The translations under genes were made by a program, and so were the position numbers. From contig JAGCOQ010000102.1 in assembly GCA_017642625.1 (NCBI GenBank), positions 1-6,460 of the forward strand: DNA of 6,460 nucleotides, given 5' to 3'. The number at the start of each line of letters is the position of its first letter. The first letter of the stretch is position 1. The notes under the pieces are model-generated. The model saw only the letters and a program-made list of their open reading frames with translations. It ran no database searches and was not told the origin of the DNA. Source of the DNA: Alphaproteobacteria bacterium (lineage in GTDB: Bacteria > Pseudomonadota > Alphaproteobacteria > Rs-D84). Shown here piece after piece: positions 1-6,460 of this stretch.

Positions 1-18
1 GATTTTAAGTGCGATTTA

Positions 19-27
19 TGGTATAAT
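19..27 (+). promoter_or_regulatory. Extended -10 promoter element (TG-N-TATAAT)
   Basis: A perfect extended -10 element is present: TG at 19-20, one base, then TATAAT at 22-27. Transcription would start near 33-36. Any -35 box would lie at or beyond the left edge of the window, so only half of the promoter can be judged. It is the only good promoter seen upstream of the gene at 98, yet an intrinsic terminator lies a few bases downstream of the predicted start. Either RNA from here is cut short, or the promoter merely overlaps the end of an upstream unit. Confidence 0.5.
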
Positions 28-39
28 ATACAACACTTT

Positions 40-65
40 GGCACCGATTTATCGGTGCCTTTTTC
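40..65 (+). terminator. Intrinsic terminator with perfect 8-bp stem
   Basis: GGCACCGA (40-47) pairs perfectly with TCGGTGCC (52-59) around a TTTA loop. A run of five T (60-64) follows. This is a textbook rho-independent terminator for + strand transcription. On the - strand there is no T-run after the hairpin. It probably ends a gene lying left of the window. It may also act as an attenuator for the gene at 98, because it lies in the leader of any RNA from the promoter at 19-27. Confidence 0.85.
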
Positions 66-97
66 TTTCCACTTTTTATTTAACCAAAGGATGAATT

Positions 98-670
98 ATG
101 TCACGAGTTTTACAAATTCGTCGCGGCACAACCGCGGAAAACAATAACTTTACCGGATTGGCGGGTGAAATCACATATGATACGACCGCCAAAACAATTC
201 GCGTTCATGACGGGACAACACTGGGCGGTGTTGCATTGGCACGCGCAGACGAAATACCGTCGCCGTCTGATTCTTTTGACATTACAACGGTGCCCGACAC
301 CACTTGGGCAGACATTGTCGCACGCGTTGCACCCGCACCGTACACAGTCAAGGCCAGCAGTAATTTAACAATCAGTGGCAACACCTATATTGAATATATC
401 TTTGGCACCGTCACAGCCGAACCGATTTCAATTCGCGCTTATTTGGTGTGCCAATCAGATGCCGCCGGATATGCCGTTGGCGACGAAACAAGTGCGTTTG
501 GAATTGGCGATTATGCGTCCCCATTATTCTATACATACATTGACCAGAACGGGTTGCATGTTCGCACAATGATTGGCAATCAGTCGTTTTGGGTCGCGCA
601 CAAAACCACAGGCGTTGCGACAAATATTGCCAACAACGAATGGAAATTAAAAATCCGCATTTATTGTTGA
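98..670 (+). CDS. Phage tail-fibre-type protein with N-terminal receptor-binding-protein head module
   Basis: 190 aa. Residues 1-49 carry the motif series QIRRGTTAEN, GLAGEITYDT and VHDGTTLGG. I recognise this as the small N-terminal module found on phage tail fibres, tail-associated hyaluronidases and major tropism determinants, where it links the fibre to the virion. The C-terminal part (about 115-190) has GYAVGDE and ends in a TGVATN...WKLKIRIYC stretch that resembles the beta-rich ends of short tail fibres. No signal peptide or membrane segment is visible. The ATG at 98 is chosen because AAAGG (86-90) lies 7 nt upstream and the conserved module begins at residue 2. An ATG at 91 is out of frame. 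No other phage gene lies in the window, so it may be a prophage remnant, the right edge of a prophage, or a domesticated gene. Module assignment is fairly sure; the cellular role is unknown. Confidence 0.7.
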   Translation: MSRVLQIRRGTTAENNNFTGLAGEITYDTTAKTIRVHDGTTLGGVALARADEIPSPSDSFDITTVPDTTWADIVARVAPAPYTVKASSNLTISGNTYIEYIFGTVTAEPISIRAYLVCQSDAAGYAVGDETSAFGIGDYASPLFYTYIDQNGLHVRTMIGNQSFWVAHKTTGVATNIANNEWKLKIRIYC

Positions 671-695
671 AAATAAAAATAACCTTTGCTATTCT
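667..695 (+). promoter_or_regulatory. Probable ackA promoter
   Basis: TTGAAA (667-672) and TATTCT (690-695) are separated by 17 bp. TG at 687-688 adds an extended -10 element. The -35 box overlaps the TGA stop of the upstream tail-fibre-type gene. The predicted start near 701-703 leaves a leader of about 27 nt that contains the Shine-Dalgarno AAAGGAAG (717-724). No terminator lies between the two genes, so read-through from upstream is also possible. Confidence 0.55.
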
Positions 696-728
696 GTCGG
701 CATCAAAAATAACACAAAAGGAAGCACT

Positions 729-1970
729 ATGTATGTTTTGTCATTAAACTGCGGTTCTTCATCGCTGAAATACAAATTGTTTGATGCCGACACGAAACAG
801 GTCGTGTTAAGCGGTTTGGCTGAAAAAATCAAGTTGCCAGATTCGGCGATTTCACAAAAATATCCTGATGGACACAAGGTTGAACGCACTGTTCCGATGC
901 GCGATCATGGCGAAGCGTTAAGCGAAGTTATGAAATTGTTGCGCGAAGCGTCCATTGACACCAACGAGATAAAGGGTGTTGGACACCGCGTTCTGTTGGG
1001 TGGTGCAGAATTGACCGCATCTTGCGAAATTACTGATGATGTCGTGCGCAAGATTCAAGAATATGCGGAAATCGCACCGTTGCACAATCCACCGGCTTTG
1101 GCGGGTATCAATACCGCGTTGCAAATGATGCCAAACGCAAAACAAGTTGCGGTTTTTGACACCGCTTTCCACCAAACTATGCCGGAACATGTTTTCCGTT
1201 ATGCTGTGCCAGAGGCATGGTATTCACAACTAAAGGTTCGTAAATACGGTTATCATGGCACTTCGCATTTGTATGTTTCAAAACGCGCGGCGGTCTTGCT
1301 GGGCAAGCCGGCATCCGAATGCAACCTGATTACAGTCCATTTGGGTTCAGGCGCATCTGTTGCCGCGATAAAGAACGGTAAATGCTTTGACACATCAATG
1401 GGATTCACCCCTATTACCGGTTTGGTTATGGGAACACGTCCGGGCAATTTGGATACATCTGCGGTGCTTTATGCAATGGATAAATTGAACCTGACATCCG
1501 CCCAGGCAACAACCCACCTTAACAAGGAATCGGGCTTGTTGGGTATGTGCAGTTTTTCCGACCTGCGCGATGTCGAAGGCAACATGGCAACCAACGAAAA
1601 ATGCCGCTTGGCATTGGAAAAACAAATCTTAAGTGTGCGCCAAACAATCGGTGCATATATGGCAACACTGGACGGCAATGTTGATGCAATCGTATTCACA
1701 GCCGGCGGTGGCGAAAACGATGCGTATATGCGCGAACGTTGCTTGGAAAACCTTGAACCAATGGGGATTAAGTTGGACAAGGCGAAAAACGAAAACGCGG
1801 TCGGTCGCAAGAATGTTTCCGAAGCAGAAATCAGCACACCCGACAGCCGTATTAAATTGTTTATGATTGCCACAAACGAAGAACTTGTGATTTTGGAAGA
1901 TACTTTGGCAATTATGAACGGCACATATAATCCAGACCATCTGAAAATGGATTATTCATTCGCAAAATAG
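729..1970 (+). CDS. ackA: Acetate kinase
   Basis: 413 aa, close to the usual 400. The enzyme converts acetate and ATP to acetyl phosphate and ADP, and in reverse makes ATP from acetyl phosphate in the cytosol. The acetokinase landmarks appear in order: LNCGSSSLK with Asn7, GHRVLLGG with Arg87, APLHNP with His119, VFDTAFH with Asp144, YGYHGTSH with His176, HLGSGAS, GTR with Arg237, FTAGGGEN (323-330) and TNEELVI with Glu384. These match the catalytic and nucleotide-binding residues known for the family. The loop after Arg237 reads PGNLDT rather than the common SGDIDP, and the later SFSDLRD replaces the usual SSDMRD type. The ATG at 729 has AAAGGAAG just upstream and the protein starts directly with the first beta strand. 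The gene appears monocistronic, with its own promoter and terminator. The usual partner pta (phosphotransacetylase) is not adjacent on the right. Confidence 0.95.
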   Translation: MYVLSLNCGSSSLKYKLFDADTKQVVLSGLAEKIKLPDSAISQKYPDGHKVERTVPMRDHGEALSEVMKLLREASIDTNEIKGVGHRVLLGGAELTASCEITDDVVRKIQEYAEIAPLHNPPALAGINTALQMMPNAKQVAVFDTAFHQTMPEHVFRYAVPEAWYSQLKVRKYGYHGTSHLYVSKRAAVLLGKPASECNLITVHLGSGASVAAIKNGKCFDTSMGFTPITGLVMGTRPGNLDTSAVLYAMDKLNLTSAQATTHLNKESGLLGMCSFSDLRDVEGNMATNEKCRLALEKQILSVRQTIGAYMATLDGNVDAIVFTAGGGENDAYMRERCLENLEPMGIKLDKAKNENAVGRKNVSEAEISTPDSRIKLFMIATNEELVILEDTLAIMNGTYNPDHLKMDYSFAK

Positions 1971-1995
1971 TGCTAAAAAACACACACAAAAAATG

Positions 1996-2030
1996 GTCAA
2001 GATGGGCGTATGTCCACCTTGGCTTTTTTT
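1996..2030 (+). terminator. Intrinsic terminator after ackA
   Basis: GTCAAGATGGG (1996-2006) pairs with TCCACCTTGGC (2013-2023), with one A-C mismatch and two G-T pairs. The loop is CGTATG. Seven T (2024-2030) follow. It lies 26 bp after the ackA stop and separates ackA from the next operon. Confidence 0.88.
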
Positions 2031-2044
2031 ATGCGACATAACAA

Positions 2045-2074
2045 TTGACACGGCGCGCGTAATTTTTTTATAAT
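2045..2074 (+). promoter_or_regulatory. Perfect-consensus sigma70-type promoter of the envelope operon
   Basis: TTGACA (2045-2050) and TATAAT (2069-2074) are both perfect hexamers, 18 bp apart. Transcription should start near 2081. The spacer begins with a GC-rich near-palindrome (ACGGCGCGCGT, 2050-2060) and ends in a T-run. The promoter sits between the ackA terminator and the lipoprotein start, so it should drive the four genes to 4482. The two perfect boxes suggest high basal expression. Confidence 0.88.
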
Positions 2075-2100
2075 CGCATTATCAAAGGGGGAAAAGTATT

Positions 2101-2247
2101 ATGAAGAAAGTGATTTTGGGCTTCTTCGTGGCGTTGGTTTTGGCCGGCTGTGGTCAAGTTTACGACCGCGAACCAGTGGGCGTTGGATACGACAACAACG
2201 AATTGAAATTAAGCCCTTGTGCATGCATCATGGTGTATCAGGCATAA
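2101..2247 (+). CDS. Small lipoprotein, 48 aa (VirB7-like by size and position)
   Basis: The protein begins MKKVILGFFVALVLAGCGQV. It has a two-Lys n-region, a hydrophobic core and a clear lipobox LAGC, with Cys17 as the lipidated residue after signal peptidase II cleavage. The mature part is only 32 residues. Gly18 and Gln19 follow the Cys, so no Asp2 inner-membrane retention signal is seen and an outer-membrane location is likely. The C-terminus holds a CAC pair (Cys40 and Cys42). GGGGG (2087-2091) lies 9 nt before the ATG, and a consensus promoter lies just upstream. It is the first gene of an operon whose next members are single-pass VirB8-like proteins. Type IV secretion loci often carry a tiny lipoprotein of this kind (VirB7), whose Cys can bond to VirB9. 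That identity is inference from size and place. The coding call is strong, the function is not known. Confidence 0.85.
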   Translation: MKKVILGFFVALVLAGCGQVYDREPVGVGYDNNELKLSPCACIMVYQA

Positions 2248-2252
2248 TCACA

Positions 2253-2280
2253 CCAACAGCCCGTTGTTGGTGGCGGAGGG
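2253..2280 (+). promoter_or_regulatory. Intercistronic hairpin and strong Shine-Dalgarno before a TTG start
   Basis: CCAACA (2253-2258) pairs with TGTTGG (2265-2270) over a 6-nt loop. After a 4-nt gap comes GGAGGG (2275-2280), 6 nt before TTG at 2287. There is no T-run after the hairpin, so it is not a terminator. The strong ribosome site decides in favour of the TTG start of the next gene. The hairpin could tune translation or RNA stability between the lipoprotein and the membrane protein genes. Confidence 0.5.
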
Positions 2281-2286
2281 ACGACA

Positions 2287-2982
2287 TTGAATTACCCAGA
2301 CGATTTTAGCACGCGGACCTTTCCGGCTGGCAAAAGCATCGCGTTGTCGCGCGCGATGGGTATCGGAATTATGTCCGCGTTTTTTATTATCGTTTGCTTA
2401 TGCGGTCTTATTTTGTGGACAATCAATTCGGCACGTGTTGAACCATACGTCTTGGTAAATGGGGGGCTGAACGATCAATGGCGCGTTGTTATGGCGGGCA
2501 CTGGACGGCCATCTGCAAAAATGACCAGTGAAGAGGTATTACAACAATCTTTACTTTGGAAGTTTACGCAAAATTGGTTCAATATTTCACCCGAGGCCGC
2601 GGTAAATCAGGCGATTTGGAACGGCACATGTGAAGAAGAATACTGTGCGTCCGAAGAAAGAGATTCGCACGATTGCGCGATTTTCTGTGCCACGAACAAT
2701 GATTTATTTAAACGTTTTACATTTACTGTATTGCCGACATATCGCAAGTATGAAGAAGCGAACACAACATGGATGTTGGTTCCTGAATCCATGCGTATTG
2801 ACCCAATCGGCTATGTTTCCCCCAGTGGCGGAACATGGCAAATTCGTGCAACGGTTTTAATTAACTCGACCAGCGCAATGGACATTGTCGCATTTGCACG
2901 GGTTGCACACAGCGACAACGCATATCCCGACACAATGGGATATTACGTTGTGGACTTTAATTCATATCGGATAAGCCAATGA
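2287..2982 (+). CDS. Single-pass inner-membrane protein, VirB8/DotI-like
   Basis: 231 aa. A cytosolic tail of about 24 residues is followed by one membrane segment (about 25-46, GIGIMSAFFIIVCLCGLILW) and a periplasmic domain of about 185 residues. This is the layout of type IV secretion VirB8, TrbF and DotI/IcmL proteins. The domain starts with EPYVLVNGG, then a helical SLLWKFTQNWF stretch, then alternating strands including TWQIRATVLIN and MGYYVVDF, as expected of the NTF2-like fold of that family. Four Cys (115, 120, 130, 134) lie in one periplasmic loop and could form two disulfides; I do not know this from typical VirB8. The start is TTG with GGAGGG 6 nt upstream. The next in-frame Met (residue 24) would remove the cytosolic tail. 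The stop overlaps the next ATG (ATGA), so translation is likely coupled. Family membership is inferred from architecture and weak motif likeness; a plain hypothetical membrane protein is the alternative. Confidence 0.85.
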   Translation: MNYPDDFSTRTFPAGKSIALSRAMGIGIMSAFFIIVCLCGLILWTINSARVEPYVLVNGGLNDQWRVVMAGTGRPSAKMTSEEVLQQSLLWKFTQNWFNISPEAAVNQAIWNGTCEEEYCASEERDSHDCAIFCATNNDLFKRFTFTVLPTYRKYEEANTTWMLVPESMRIDPIGYVSPSGGTWQIRATVLINSTSAMDIVAFARVAHSDNAYPDTMGYYVVDFNSYRISQ

Positions 2983-3653
2983 AGAAACTGACTATGGTTC
3001 TTTTGGGATTATTGATGGTGGCACTGGTTGTGGCATTACTGTTTTTCGCGTCTGCGATTTATGATACCGCGGCGCGTGAATCTGTGACCCCATACTTTTT
3101 CCAAACGAACGAGTTGTCGGTTATGCGCCCTGGGTTACCGGTGCGTGAATCAGAATTGGGCGAAACAGCAATGCGTGAAATGCTGATTAAAAAATATGTG
3201 ACCGAATACTTCTATGCGATACCAGACGAAGAAAACATCGCCGTTCGAACACAGGCGGGTACCAGTTCTACAATGGCTCTTATGTCCAAGCCAGAGGTTT
3301 TTGACGAATGGCTTAATGGCGAAGCGGAAACAATAAAATACTTGGCGAAGCACAAAAAAATGCGGACCGTCGCGGTTGATGGCAGGATATACAAACCCGC
3401 CGACAGTGATTACTGGGTTGTCCCATACACCTTATACACATGGGATTATCCAAATGATATGAGCATTAAACCAACCGTTTCGCATGGAACATTATTGATG
3501 GATGTTTATTACAGCCCCGGCATCCGCGAAGCATTTAATGGTGAAAAGTTTTTAAAAGCCGTTTATAATCATCACGTCCAAGTGCGTGGAATTGATCCGT
3601 CGGCGGCTCTTAAATTCGGGGTAAATTATTTGGAAAACAGACCTAATGATTAA
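2979..3653 (+). CDS. Second single-pass inner-membrane protein, VirB8-like
   Basis: 224 aa. Two Lys at positions 2-3 precede a long hydrophobic segment (about 4-27), which no obvious signal peptidase site ends, so it is probably a membrane anchor with the rest in the periplasm. The soluble part begins with a helix (EMLIKKYVTEYFYAI, 67-81). A TSSTMALMSKPEVFDEWL stretch, then strands MRTVAVDGRIY, YWVVPYTLYTWD and GTLLMDVYYS, follow. This helix-then-curved-sheet order is like the periplasmic NTF2-like domain of VirB8. There is no Cys in the protein, unlike its upstream neighbour. The ATG overlaps the previous stop by 4 nt, with a weak GGATAAG before it, so it probably depends on coupled translation. 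The two adjacent proteins may be diverged paralogues that pair with each other, as VirB8-type proteins dimerise. That is inference. The protein has no name I recognise. Confidence 0.85.
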   Translation: MKKLTMVLLGLLMVALVVALLFFASAIYDTAARESVTPYFFQTNELSVMRPGLPVRESELGETAMREMLIKKYVTEYFYAIPDEENIAVRTQAGTSSTMALMSKPEVFDEWLNGEAETIKYLAKHKKMRTVAVDGRIYKPADSDYWVVPYTLYTWDYPNDMSIKPTVSHGTLLMDVYYSPGIREAFNGEKFLKAVYNHHVQVRGIDPSAALKFGVNYLENRPND

Positions 3654-4482
3654 AAAGATTTTATCTTTACTGGTTATTGTGATGATGGGCACCGTTGTTG
3701 CGCATGCTGAAAACGATATTGTGTATGACGAAACCCAATTTAATCAAGGTAATGATGATTATGTCTATGACGAAGACCCATTTAATTTTGATAACTTTGC
3801 CATCGCAGACAGTGTGAATCCTGACATTACAACCACACCCAATTCTGTTAACCCGGGCAACAGACCCGTCGCGGTAAGCACTTTTGATATTGCCGGTATC
3901 ATGTTGGGCATGACATTTGATGATGTTCGTTTTCTGTTCGAAAATGGTGGTTTATATGCGCCACGCGCAAATGATGCGGTTGTTTACACTATTGCGCCCG
4001 ATTGGCGTTATAACTTGGATTATGAATGTCGGCAACGGAATATCTTTGTCCCTGACCAGTTGGAACATTGTATTCGCACATTGGCACAAAATCGTGGGTT
4101 AATGTATGCATCAGAATACCATTTGGTTCGCGATTTAACCGGCGAAACGATTGATGTTTATTTCACCAGCAATGCAACCGACAATGTTGTATGGCGCGTT
4201 GAATACAATAATGATGCGAACGAGATGGATGGCACCGCCGAAAAGTTCGAAGACCAACGCCAAAAAAAGATTCTTAATTTCTGGGCGGGCGTGGTTGATA
4301 AATATGGCACACCTAATTCTGGAACGGACAAGTGGGTATCGTCAAACAATTCTTATGATCCAATGATGACGGCATACTATGGCGCACTGGAATTGGTGGA
4401 CAATGGTCGCCATGCCACTGATGCGGCGCTGAATGTAAAGGGCGCACGTGAAAACTTCCCATCGAAACCATATGCGTTTTAG
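3646..4482 (+). CDS. Exported periplasmic protein of unknown function
   Basis: 278 aa. Residues 1-21 form a Sec signal peptide (MIKKILSLLVIVMMGTVVAHA) with an AHA cleavage site and END as the mature start. The next 60 residues are acidic, low in complexity and probably unfolded. They contain two copies of VYDE-x-x-FN (26-33 and 40-47). A folded domain starts near residue 80 with FDIAGIMLGMTFDDVRFLFENGG. The 'GI-x-LGM-x-x-x-x-V' pattern is common in small periplasmic alpha/beta domains. Later come NFWAGVVDKYGTPN and a KW pair. Two Cys (128, 142) lie close enough for one disulfide. The ATG overlaps the previous gene by 8 nt, with GGAAAA 8 nt before it, which ties it to the operon. It may act with the two VirB8-like proteins in the periplasm. 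I do not recognise the family. Confidence 0.85.
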   Translation: MIKKILSLLVIVMMGTVVAHAENDIVYDETQFNQGNDDYVYDEDPFNFDNFAIADSVNPDITTTPNSVNPGNRPVAVSTFDIAGIMLGMTFDDVRFLFENGGLYAPRANDAVVYTIAPDWRYNLDYECRQRNIFVPDQLEHCIRTLAQNRGLMYASEYHLVRDLTGETIDVYFTSNATDNVVWRVEYNNDANEMDGTAEKFEDQRQKKILNFWAGVVDKYGTPNSGTDKWVSSNNSYDPMMTAYYGALELVDNGRHATDAALNVKGARENFPSKPYAF

Positions 4483-4503
4483 TCCCGCATTTGCCGTTTT
4501 TTT
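4472..4503 (+). terminator. Weak possible terminator at the operon end
   Basis: ATGCG (4472-4476) and CGCAT (4486-4490) can form a 5-bp stem that includes the last codons and stop of the operon. Seven T (4497-4503) follow after a 6-nt gap. The stem is short and set off from the T-run, so this is much weaker than the two terminators upstream, and some read-through into the next gene is possible. Confidence 0.3.
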
Positions 4504-4519
4504 ATTTCAAAAAGATAGG

Positions 4520-4538
4520 AATAGTTTCACAATAGTTT
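4520..4538 (+). repeat. Tandem AATAGTTT direct repeat upstream of a -35 box
   Basis: AATAGTTT occurs at 4520-4527 and 4531-4538. The period is 11 bp, about one helical turn, so both copies face the same side of the DNA. The second copy runs into the TTGACA at 4538. Such spacing is typical of binding sites for a regulator beside RNA polymerase. No regulator gene is in the window. Confidence 0.5.
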
Positions 4539-4566
4539 TGACATAAATCCTAAAAAGCGGAATAAT
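4538..4566 (+). promoter_or_regulatory. Promoter of the NTase-kinase gene
   Basis: TTGACA (4538-4543) is a perfect -35 box. AATAAT (4561-4566) is a 5-of-6 -10 box, 17 bp downstream. Transcription would start near 4573 and leave a leader of about 28 nt. Direct repeats overlap both sides of the promoter, which suggests regulated expression. The leader has no good Shine-Dalgarno before the ATG at 4601. Confidence 0.7.
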
Positions 4567-4578
4567 ATCCTAAAACGG
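4547..4578 (+). repeat. ATCCTAAAA(AG)CGG direct repeat, 20-bp period
   Basis: ATCCTAAAAAGCGG (4547-4560) recurs as ATCCTAAAACGG (4567-4578). The copies start 20 bp apart, about two helical turns. One lies in the promoter spacer and the other covers the predicted transcription start, a usual place for a repressor operator. An inverted TAGGA (4516-4520) occurs further upstream. Confidence 0.5.
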
Positions 4579-4600
4579 ACACAAACCAAGCAGAAAACCA

Positions 4601-6442
4601 ATGAAACCCGAATTACATTTAATCGTTTTATGGGCGAACGCCAGATATAAAGAACAAGAAATTGTTGATGATATTAAACAACGATTGGACATTATGGCGG
4701 CATATGATATGCATTGGTCATGTGATTTAGTGTCCAGTAATTTTACGCGGTTTTATGGTGTTAATTTGCCCAAAAACTCCCCAAAGGAACAAGAATGCGG
4801 GGTGACGGGATTTCTGTTGCTGGTTGTGCGCGATAATAATCCAAAATATGAATATGTTGAAACATCACGTGGCACCGAAAAGGTAAATATAAATATATTC
4901 AGTTTAAAGCAAAAATATCGTCAATGGACACGTGGTGGGCACAAGATTCACACTACTAATTCTGTGGCGGAAACAAATCATGATTCTGCATTGCTGCTGG
5001 GGTTAAATTATGATGATTTGAAGAAGTCTTTGTCGAAAAAGTGGAACGGCGAAATCAAAACAGTATATCGCGATTTAACCGGCGCAAAAGGTTGGACCAG
5101 CCTGAAAGAGTTTTTCTATACCTTAAACGCAACCATAAATTATACGGTGTTAAGAAATGCGGAAATATTGCCCAATAAGTTCAAGACCGATTTACATGGC
5201 GATATTGACATTTTGACCACTGATTTCAAGCAGATTCTGTTTATCACAAATGCGACCAAGGTGTTTGACGAACCGTATCGTGTTCACTGCGAAACAAAAA
5301 TTGCGGGTGTCCCTGTAAGATTTGATTTCCGCTATGTTGGCGACGATTATTATTGCAAGGATTTTGAACAAGATTTATTGAAACACAAATACATAAATGC
5401 CAAGGGTGTTTCCGTCTTGGCGGATGAAGATTTGTTTTATGCTATGGTGTATCACGCATTGGTGCACAAGCGGGTTGTTGCACCTGATTACTATGACAAA
5501 ATCTATGATTTATTTGTGAAGTTGGGTTTTGATAAATCATACGACATAAAAAAATATGCTTCTCCGTTTGATTTGTATTTTGAATTGCTGGAAAAGTTTA
5601 TGGCGAACAACCACTACCAATATACCCGACCAATCGACAGAAGTGTATTTTTCAACGAAAAACTTACAATTTGGCGCAGAGCGTATAATTATCTAAACAA
5701 TGCATTTCATTTCACAAACATACGACCGGTATATTGTGATAAAACCGCGCAGACAGATGCCAATTTATTCTTGTTCGCAACTGATGAATATGGAAACAAT
5801 CTCTTTGTAAAATCCGGTGATATTCCCGAATTGTTCACTAATGAATACAAGAAGTCTGCGATTTTATATAATATCGACCATACGCATTTTGTTAAACCAT
5901 TGTATTATCATGACAACTCGTTGGGTGCGGATGATGTTTGTTTCGTTGCAACCGAATACAAACGTGCCGGCACATTGTCGCGTTTAATGGAAACGACAAC
6001 CGTGACGCCAAAACAACGGTCGGCAATGCTGGACGATATTCGCGACATATATACGGCGTTATCACAATCTGATGTTGTGCATCGCGACATTCGCCCAGAC
6101 AACCTTATGTATTACAGAAACCATTTAATTTTGATTGATTTCCAGTTGGCTGTTAGTAAAAGCAATTACAAGGAATTGCAATTCCTGATGAAACACACCA
6201 AATATCTAAAATGGCTTGGCACAAGCGATTTTCGCCAGAAACAGTATTTGTGGGATGATGCCTATTCTTTATTAAAGGTTGTTGAATATATCGGCCGGCA
6301 CAGCAGTTATGGCAAAAAATATGACGATTTACACAAATTGCTTGCGGGTGCGGTTGGCAAACAACAAATTCGCTTTAAACCAAAGCGCGCTAACAAGGGG
6401 CTGAAACGCCTGTGGAAACATATCAGAAAATTAAAGTTCTAA
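4601..6442 (+). CDS. Multidomain nucleotidyltransferase-like and kinase-like protein
   Basis: 613 aa, no signal peptide or membrane segment, so cytosolic. Residues 1-150 form an unnamed region with striking blocks: LIVLWANARYKEQEI, FYGVNLP, ETSRGTEKVNINIF, GGHKIH and TNHDSALLLG. Residues about 180-290 look like a nucleotidyltransferase fold: YTVLRNAEILP leads to HGDIDIL (Asp201, Asp203), and a third acidic residue lies in VRFDFR (Asp242). Residues about 385-560 look like a protein-kinase fold: LFVK (Lys404), NEYKK (Glu415, likely the salt-bridge partner), hinge TEYKRAG, VVHRDIRPDN (His494, Asp496, Asn501), LIDFQ (Asp513) and WDDAYSL (551-557). Gln replaces Gly of DFG, and no clear glycine-rich loop is seen. 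The C-terminus (590-613) is very basic. Such pairs of domains fit proteins that modify surface glycans or lipids with phosphate-linked groups; this is inference. The gene is AT-richer than its neighbours. The ATG at 4601 has only a weak ribosome site. Confidence 0.85.
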   Translation: MKPELHLIVLWANARYKEQEIVDDIKQRLDIMAAYDMHWSCDLVSSNFTRFYGVNLPKNSPKEQECGVTGFLLLVVRDNNPKYEYVETSRGTEKVNINIFSLKQKYRQWTRGGHKIHTTNSVAETNHDSALLLGLNYDDLKKSLSKKWNGEIKTVYRDLTGAKGWTSLKEFFYTLNATINYTVLRNAEILPNKFKTDLHGDIDILTTDFKQILFITNATKVFDEPYRVHCETKIAGVPVRFDFRYVGDDYYCKDFEQDLLKHKYINAKGVSVLADEDLFYAMVYHALVHKRVVAPDYYDKIYDLFVKLGFDKSYDIKKYASPFDLYFELLEKFMANNHYQYTRPIDRSVFFNEKLTIWRRAYNYLNNAFHFTNIRPVYCDKTAQTDANLFLFATDEYGNNLFVKSGDIPELFTNEYKKSAILYNIDHTHFVKPLYYHDNSLGADDVCFVATEYKRAGTLSRLMETTTVTPKQRSAMLDDIRDIYTALSQSDVVHRDIRPDNLMYYRNHLILIDFQLAVSKSNYKELQFLMKHTKYLKWLGTSDFRQKQYLWDDAYSLLKVVEYIGRHSSYGKKYDDLHKLLAGAVGKQQIRFKPKRANKGLKRLWKHIRKLKF

Positions 6443-6460
6443 GTGCACAATGAACAGTTA

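Follow-up and report, generated by a model that had tools for sequence, protein, structure and literature searches.

A VirB7-VirB8-VirB8 gene unit as a probable islet of a dispersed type IV secretion system in Alphaproteobacteria

What is the role of two consecutive VirB8-like proteins in a stretch of DNA where no secretion engine follows them? The question is raised by a 6,460-nucleotide (nt) stretch from an Alphaproteobacteria bacterium of the lineage Rs-D84 (assembly GCA_017642625.1, contig JAGCOQ010000102.1, positions 1 to 6,460), here called the window. A preliminary description of the window had reported four genes behind one perfect promoter, encoding a 48-residue lipoprotein, tandem VirB8-like proteins and an exported protein, and had offered two readings: a scattered secretion system, as in Rickettsiales, or a stand-alone envelope complex built from VirB8-type folds. 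Our analysis strongly favors the former. The unit (virB7-virB8a-virB8b-exported accessory protein) is, with high probability, one islet of a chromosomal type IV secretion system (T4SS) whose genes are dispersed.

The four genes lie on the forward strand. Their promoter, TTGACA-N18-TATAAT at positions 2045..2074, matches the consensus at 12/12 positions, the sole such match among the 19 promoter-like sites of the window, and a ribosome-binding-like AAAGGGGG (2084..2091, read by eye) precedes the lipoprotein gene. The latter (2101..2247) encodes a 48-residue protein with the lipobox LAGC and the motif KLSPCAC (LPAM_1, 22.2 bits; cut-off 20). Next come virB8a (2287..2982; TTG start), encoding a VirB8-type protein of 231 residues with one N-terminal hydrophobic stretch; virB8b (2979..3653), encoding a second VirB8-type protein of 224 residues; and the gene for an exported protein of an unnamed family (3646..4482; 278 residues, with a start that is signal-peptide-like by eye). 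The gene count, the promoter and the overlaps of 4 and 8 nt are as first described.

Is this arrangement more than a local accident? Protein-database searches returned 54 homologs of VirB8a, 82 of VirB8b and 801 of the exported protein, the query's own cluster included. A VirB8b-profile scan of one genome per species, which used two peptide patterns and was not exhaustive, gave 26 related loci. Their record titles read Alphaproteobacteria, proteobacterium, Pseudomonadota and, once, plain bacterium, and 10/26 name herbivore rumen, reticulum, colon, rectum or feces. The preliminary description had made its reading depend on conservation of the unit, and the unit is intact: in 26/26 loci the genes for the lipoprotein, VirB8a, VirB8b and the exported protein stand side by side in the same orientation. 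Since the loci were selected by VirB8b, this means that the unit is kept where a VirB8b gene exists. The promoter is conserved as well. In 27/27 loci (the window and its 26 relatives), a promoter with an 18-nt spacer and a 10-12/12 match begins 52-70 nt upstream of the lipoprotein gene; when the bases of the same stretch are shuffled, no more than 1.5% of the shuffles reach its score in 23 loci, compared with 8.5-10.5% in the other four (L021, L022, L025, L026). The VirB8a gene also begins with TTG in 18 of the 21 loci in which its start can be placed. The most conserved member is the lipoprotein, whose mature form shares 28-32 of its 32 residues with the window copy in all 26 loci; VirB8b identity to the window spans 31-61%.

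The lipoprotein had not been recognized as VirB7-like. Judged by sequence and gene order it is so, because it has a lipobox and because lipoproteins with the same motif lie upstream of virB8-virB9 in distant loci. Sixteen distant loci with virB8 beside virB9 were available, and in 14 of them a K-x-SPCAC lipoprotein is encoded just upstream of virB8, at a distance of 0 to ~180 nt (the pattern, of our own design, yielded 22 rows across loci L027-L133, of which 3 were off target). In G308 the lipoprotein gene lies elsewhere, ahead of a tandem virB8 pair rather than virB8-virB9, and in G311 the pattern found none. The window protein shares the VirB7 hallmarks: a small lipoprotein with a lipobox and a second Cys, encoded just upstream of virB8. 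A possible partner for this second Cys is found in VirB9, which has one invariant Cys just after its CagX domain in 39/39 sequences of at least 440 residues (some genomes contribute two rows); two cysteines in its SPOR domain are likewise kept in every row long enough to include them (17 and 15). One of the SPCAC cysteines and the invariant VirB9 Cys probably form a VirB7-VirB9 disulfide. In Rickettsia, as Gillespie and colleagues describe in the text available to us (PMC2653234), the VirB7 candidate lies directly upstream of virB8b, a [KI]KSP motif flanks its second Cys, and VirB9a has a conserved Cys.

The VirB8-like reading of the tandem proteins is supported. PF04335 matches 41/54 VirB8a homologs (best E value 1.9e-8) and 3/82 VirB8b homologs at E up to 0.1; it was precomputed on 4/54 VirB8a homologs, and the window VirB8a scores 15.9 bits, below the cut-off of 23.2. 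The predicted fold was checked for VirB8b alone. The model has a helix at residues 2-31 and a matched domain from about residue 60, and Foldseek and VIA place it with VirB8, TraE and CagV structures; this is the predicted layout of the VirB8 family, an N-terminal transmembrane helix followed by a VirB8/NTF2-like periplasmic domain. Matches to the Dot/Icm-type proteins DotI, IcmL and TraM (PDB 3wz3-3wz5, 5cnl) were weaker than those to VirB8 and CagV. Moreover, the relatives encode a third VirB8, not noted in the preliminary description, beside virB9: VirB8a and VirB8b are present in 26/26 relatives and VirB8c in 22/26 (PF04335, E up to 0.01). Fifteen distant genomes encode CagX as well as the exported protein; in these, PF04335 has three matches in nine, four in one, five in one, two in three and one in one. 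G308, with two matches, has a third virB8 copy, recognized on reading its loci. A tree of 59 sequences puts the a, b and c proteins and two of three distant paralogs each in a clade of its own, while the deep links are not settled by the tree. The arch protomer of R388 is a trimer of VirB8, going by the title of PDB 7q1v, and this suggests a tentative extension, which we rate as possible though doubtful: VirB8a, VirB8b and VirB8c might be an obligate heterotrimer, each arch being built from three dedicated subunits, with the fourth protein as a new periplasmic component of that machine. Three paralogs in one genome make arch composition directly testable.

Where, then, is the engine? The preliminary statement that there is none holds for the window, where none follows the unit, and fails for the relatives, most of which encode VirB4, VirB9, VirB10, a VirB11-size ATPase and VirD4 elsewhere in their genomes. 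We searched the 26 genomes of relatives that carry the unit. VirB4 (PF03135) was found in 22 and VirB9 (CagX, PF03524) in 24, with one match each and two in none, although a truncated second VirB9 copy could escape; VirB10 (TrbI) was found in 23, VirD4 in 25, and a T2SSE ATPase of VirB11 size, assigned by family and size, in 25 (319-334 residues; one of 195 near a contig end). At least three of these five components are present in every relative. The genes are dispersed. In the 22 genomes where the contig of the unit can be identified by coordinates, VirB4 and VirD4 are never encoded on it, and VirB10 is in 2, ~90-100 kb away. A VirB11-size gene shares the contig in 9/21 genomes, 9-29 kb away (G002, G005, G006, G008, G009, G011, G017, G025, G026), and the unit and virB11 islets may be loosely linked. 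The islets of G006 were read: virB3-virB4; the VirB11-size gene; virD4; and the third virB8 followed by virB9 and virB10. All seven products, VirB3, VirB4, VirD4, the third VirB8, VirB9, VirB10 and the VirB11-size T2SSE protein, pass Pfam cut-offs, and at the C terminus of VirB9 lies a SPOR domain (22.7 bits against a cut-off of 21). The scattered system proposed at the outset is thus supported in the relatives.

Two observations concern the surroundings of these islets. In G006 a pilus-like cluster (L079:1393-6598; a T2SSE ATPase, PF06864 PilO and an ORF that is PilC-like by eye) lies ~10 kb from virB3-virB4, and by coordinates a similar spacing between VirB4 and a long T2SSE ATPase recurs in many genomes. 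In distant relatives, proteins at the VirB10 position can be very long: 2510 residues at L130:1-7531, where the frame is open at the locus end, and 1208 residues with beta-flower repeats (PF21785, 13 stretches) at L131:905-4531.

The exported fourth protein has no Pfam domain on its homologs, among the 120 matches listed of 801. Its C128 and C142 are invariant in 41 aligned sequences. We searched a class sample of 385 genomes with this protein and with CagX: the protein occurs in 24 genomes (alignment A3; 23 in a first search), and CagX gave 84 matches. Of those 24 genomes, 18 also encode CagX (Fisher p 1e-8, in a test that ignores relatedness), and VirB4 is found in 5 of the 6 without CagX; thus VirB9 or VirB4 accompanies the protein in 23/24. 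We take it to be a periplasmic accessory part of the T4SS.

These components suggest the following arrangement. The VirB7 lipoprotein would anchor VirB9 at the outer membrane, probably through the disulfide proposed above, while the SPOR domain of VirB9 would probably hold peptidoglycan. VirB8a, VirB8b and VirB8c would form periplasmic arches between an inner-membrane VirB3-VirB4 complex and a VirB7-VirB9-VirB10 core, to which the fourth protein would add a periplasmic accessory part. VirB4, VirB11 and VirD4, encoded at other places in the genome, would supply energy and substrates.

What would such a machine move? VirD4 is present and a PF03432 relaxase was found in 0/26 relatives (other relaxase families were not searched), and for these reasons we propose protein export, at roughly even odds. 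Conjugation is less likely than protein export to a second cell, for which a gut eukaryote or bacteria are candidates. The strongest competitor accepts the same machine and alters its function, to DNA uptake of the ComB kind or DNA release. VirB10 also has a sub-threshold match to ComB10 (47.5 bits), the Cys features of VirB7 and VirB9 resemble those described for ComB7 and ComB9 in the available text of PMC2653234, and the virB3-virB4 islet of G006 has the PilO/T2SSE cluster nearby. However, the pilus link is one of neighborhood only, and 25/26 relatives encode the VirD4 coupling protein. We give a DNA role perhaps half the weight of protein export.

In a second alternative, the stand-alone envelope complex of the preliminary description, the unit would have no tie to any secretion system. 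Many loci have, upstream of the unit, a cluster that reads, by eye, as frr-uppS-cdsA-rseP-bamA, the nearest vir gene found in G006 is ~24 kb off, and the exported protein is away from virB8 in 8/8 distant loci. Nevertheless, every one of the 26 relatives has much of an engine, and the lipoproteins upstream of virB8-virB9 in 14/16 distant loci bear the very motif of the unit's own. An independent complex is therefore highly improbable. Several further points do weigh against an islet of a T4SS. The search for engine genes covered the relatives rather than the window's own genome, and VirB4, VirB9, VirB10, the VirB11-size ATPase and VirD4 occur all together in 18/26 only. Each of G001, G004, G007, G010, G011, G012, G020 and G022 lacks at least one of the five, for which incomplete assemblies are a likely reason. 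VirB6 (TrbL, PF04610) passes the cut-off in 0/26 relatives, where a divergent copy could be missed; a single weak PF04610 match was rejected, the ORF reading as an ABC transporter. VirB8a and VirB8b show no similarity in a direct profile comparison (hhalign probability 2.1%). The gene for the exported protein lies apart from virB8 in all 8 of the distant loci that were read, so that the protein's link to the system there is one of co-occurrence only; G095 has the exported protein and neither VirB9 nor VirB4 was found in it; G308 has the lipoprotein and tandem virB8 without the exported protein; and G028 and G397, whose VirB7 and VirB9 are of the kind found here, show no match to the exported protein. 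The last alternative, a decaying T4SS remnant in a shrinking genome, is suggested by assemblies of ~0.6-1.1 Mb, dispersed genes and an undetected VirB6, and is the least credible, given the near-identity of the mature lipoprotein across the 26 loci, a promoter kept in 27/27 and a unit complete with all four genes in 26/26.

The genes that flank the unit in the window are less constant. Upstream lie an Mtd_N-domain protein (window 98-670) and acetate kinase (window 729-1970), both on the forward strand; acetate kinase is found in the examined stretch of just 4/26 related loci. It is 97% identical to that of L006:7740-8981, whereas identity drops to 74% for the adjacent Mtd_N protein and to 61% for VirB8a, a contrast that may reflect either recombination of ackA or rapid divergence of the genes around it. 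ORFs clustering with the window Mtd_N protein, which is tail-like by PHROGs, occur in 12/26 related loci, and in G308 (L129) an ORF that resembles it by eye adjoins the tandem virB8 pair. Downstream, as the preliminary description had it, the next gene (window 4601-6442, forward strand) is unrelated to the unit: it encodes a kinase-like protein of 613 residues (C-terminal PF00069, 33.9 bits) behind its own promoter-like site (4538-4566), and none of the ORFs in the 26 related loci is a relative of it. In many of these loci the unit precedes a gene that is YraN-like by eye. A second small conserved lipoprotein-like ORF with NCEYDFLLHKDISISKIIG (L006:11697-11954) is present in 16/26 loci, mostly downstream of the unit. 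Phage structural genes, namely a head-tail adaptor (phrog_332), a tail gene (phrog_376) and a major head protein (phrog_3437), are scattered near the unit or virB11 (L006:15322-16554, L010:11718-19769, L080:249-2390), with a terminase (phrog_38) in two separate halves ~3 kb apart; 11/26 loci have the head-tail adaptor gene downstream of the unit. These could be a dispersed domesticated phage or a gene-transfer-agent-like set.

How does this system compare with known ones? Uncultured alphaproteobacteria with small assemblies, many of them from animal guts, carry a dispersed T4SS that routine annotation would miss, its VirB7 being 48 residues long, its VirB8 copies at or below Pfam cut-offs and its fourth part unnamed. 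A rumen study of metagenome-assembled genomes (MAGs) places small alphaproteobacterial MAGs in the orders Rs-D84 and RF32 (PMC8992543, available text), and T4SS components with a virD2 relaxase are noted in some Hepatincolaceae (PMC11724238, available text). No paper was found on RF32 with type IV secretion or on VirB9 with a SPOR domain, and among the matches listed no published description of this system appeared; the subscription literature was mostly outside reach. Dot/Icm systems differ in that the other components here match VirB families (Dot/Icm-specific families were not searched). With the P-type systems of R388, pKM101 and Agrobacterium, to judge from the entries 7o41 and 7q1v, the relatives share the VirB8 fold, the VirB9-VirB10 core with VirB7 (VirB9 in 24 and VirB10 in 23 of 26), VirB3, and the ATPases VirB4, VirB11 and VirD4 (22, 25 and 25 of 26). 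Unlike those systems, the genes do not form one operon, no PF03432 relaxase was found, and there are three different VirB8 proteins. The closest organizational parallel is the rvh system of Rickettsiales as portrayed in the available text of PMC2653234 and PMC11077975: genes in separate islets, more than one virB8, virB3 adjoining virB4, a VirB7 lipoprotein encoded next to virB8 with a second Cys after a K-x-SP motif, and a conserved VirB9 Cys (the last two from PMC2653234). An ancestral rvh system has been proposed to have perhaps killed bacteria (PMC9352585, available text). The differences from rvh are several. There are three VirB8 paralogs here and two in rvh; VirB9 open frames of ~510-560 residues with SPOR, compared with 247 residues for VirB9a of R. 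typhi; and a VirB10 of mostly ~770-830 residues, compared with 481 in R. typhi. VirB4 has one match per genome (22/26, none in 4), whereas rvh has two virB4 genes, a hallmark of it (PMC11077975); VirB9 has one match per genome (a truncated second copy could be missed), compared with two; TrbL/VirB6 is undetected in 26 genomes, compared with five in Rickettsia; and the exported protein is an extra. We file the system as a variant of the P-type T4SS, organized like the rvh archipelago without its two virB4 genes, and it provides a comparison case for the scattered rvh system.

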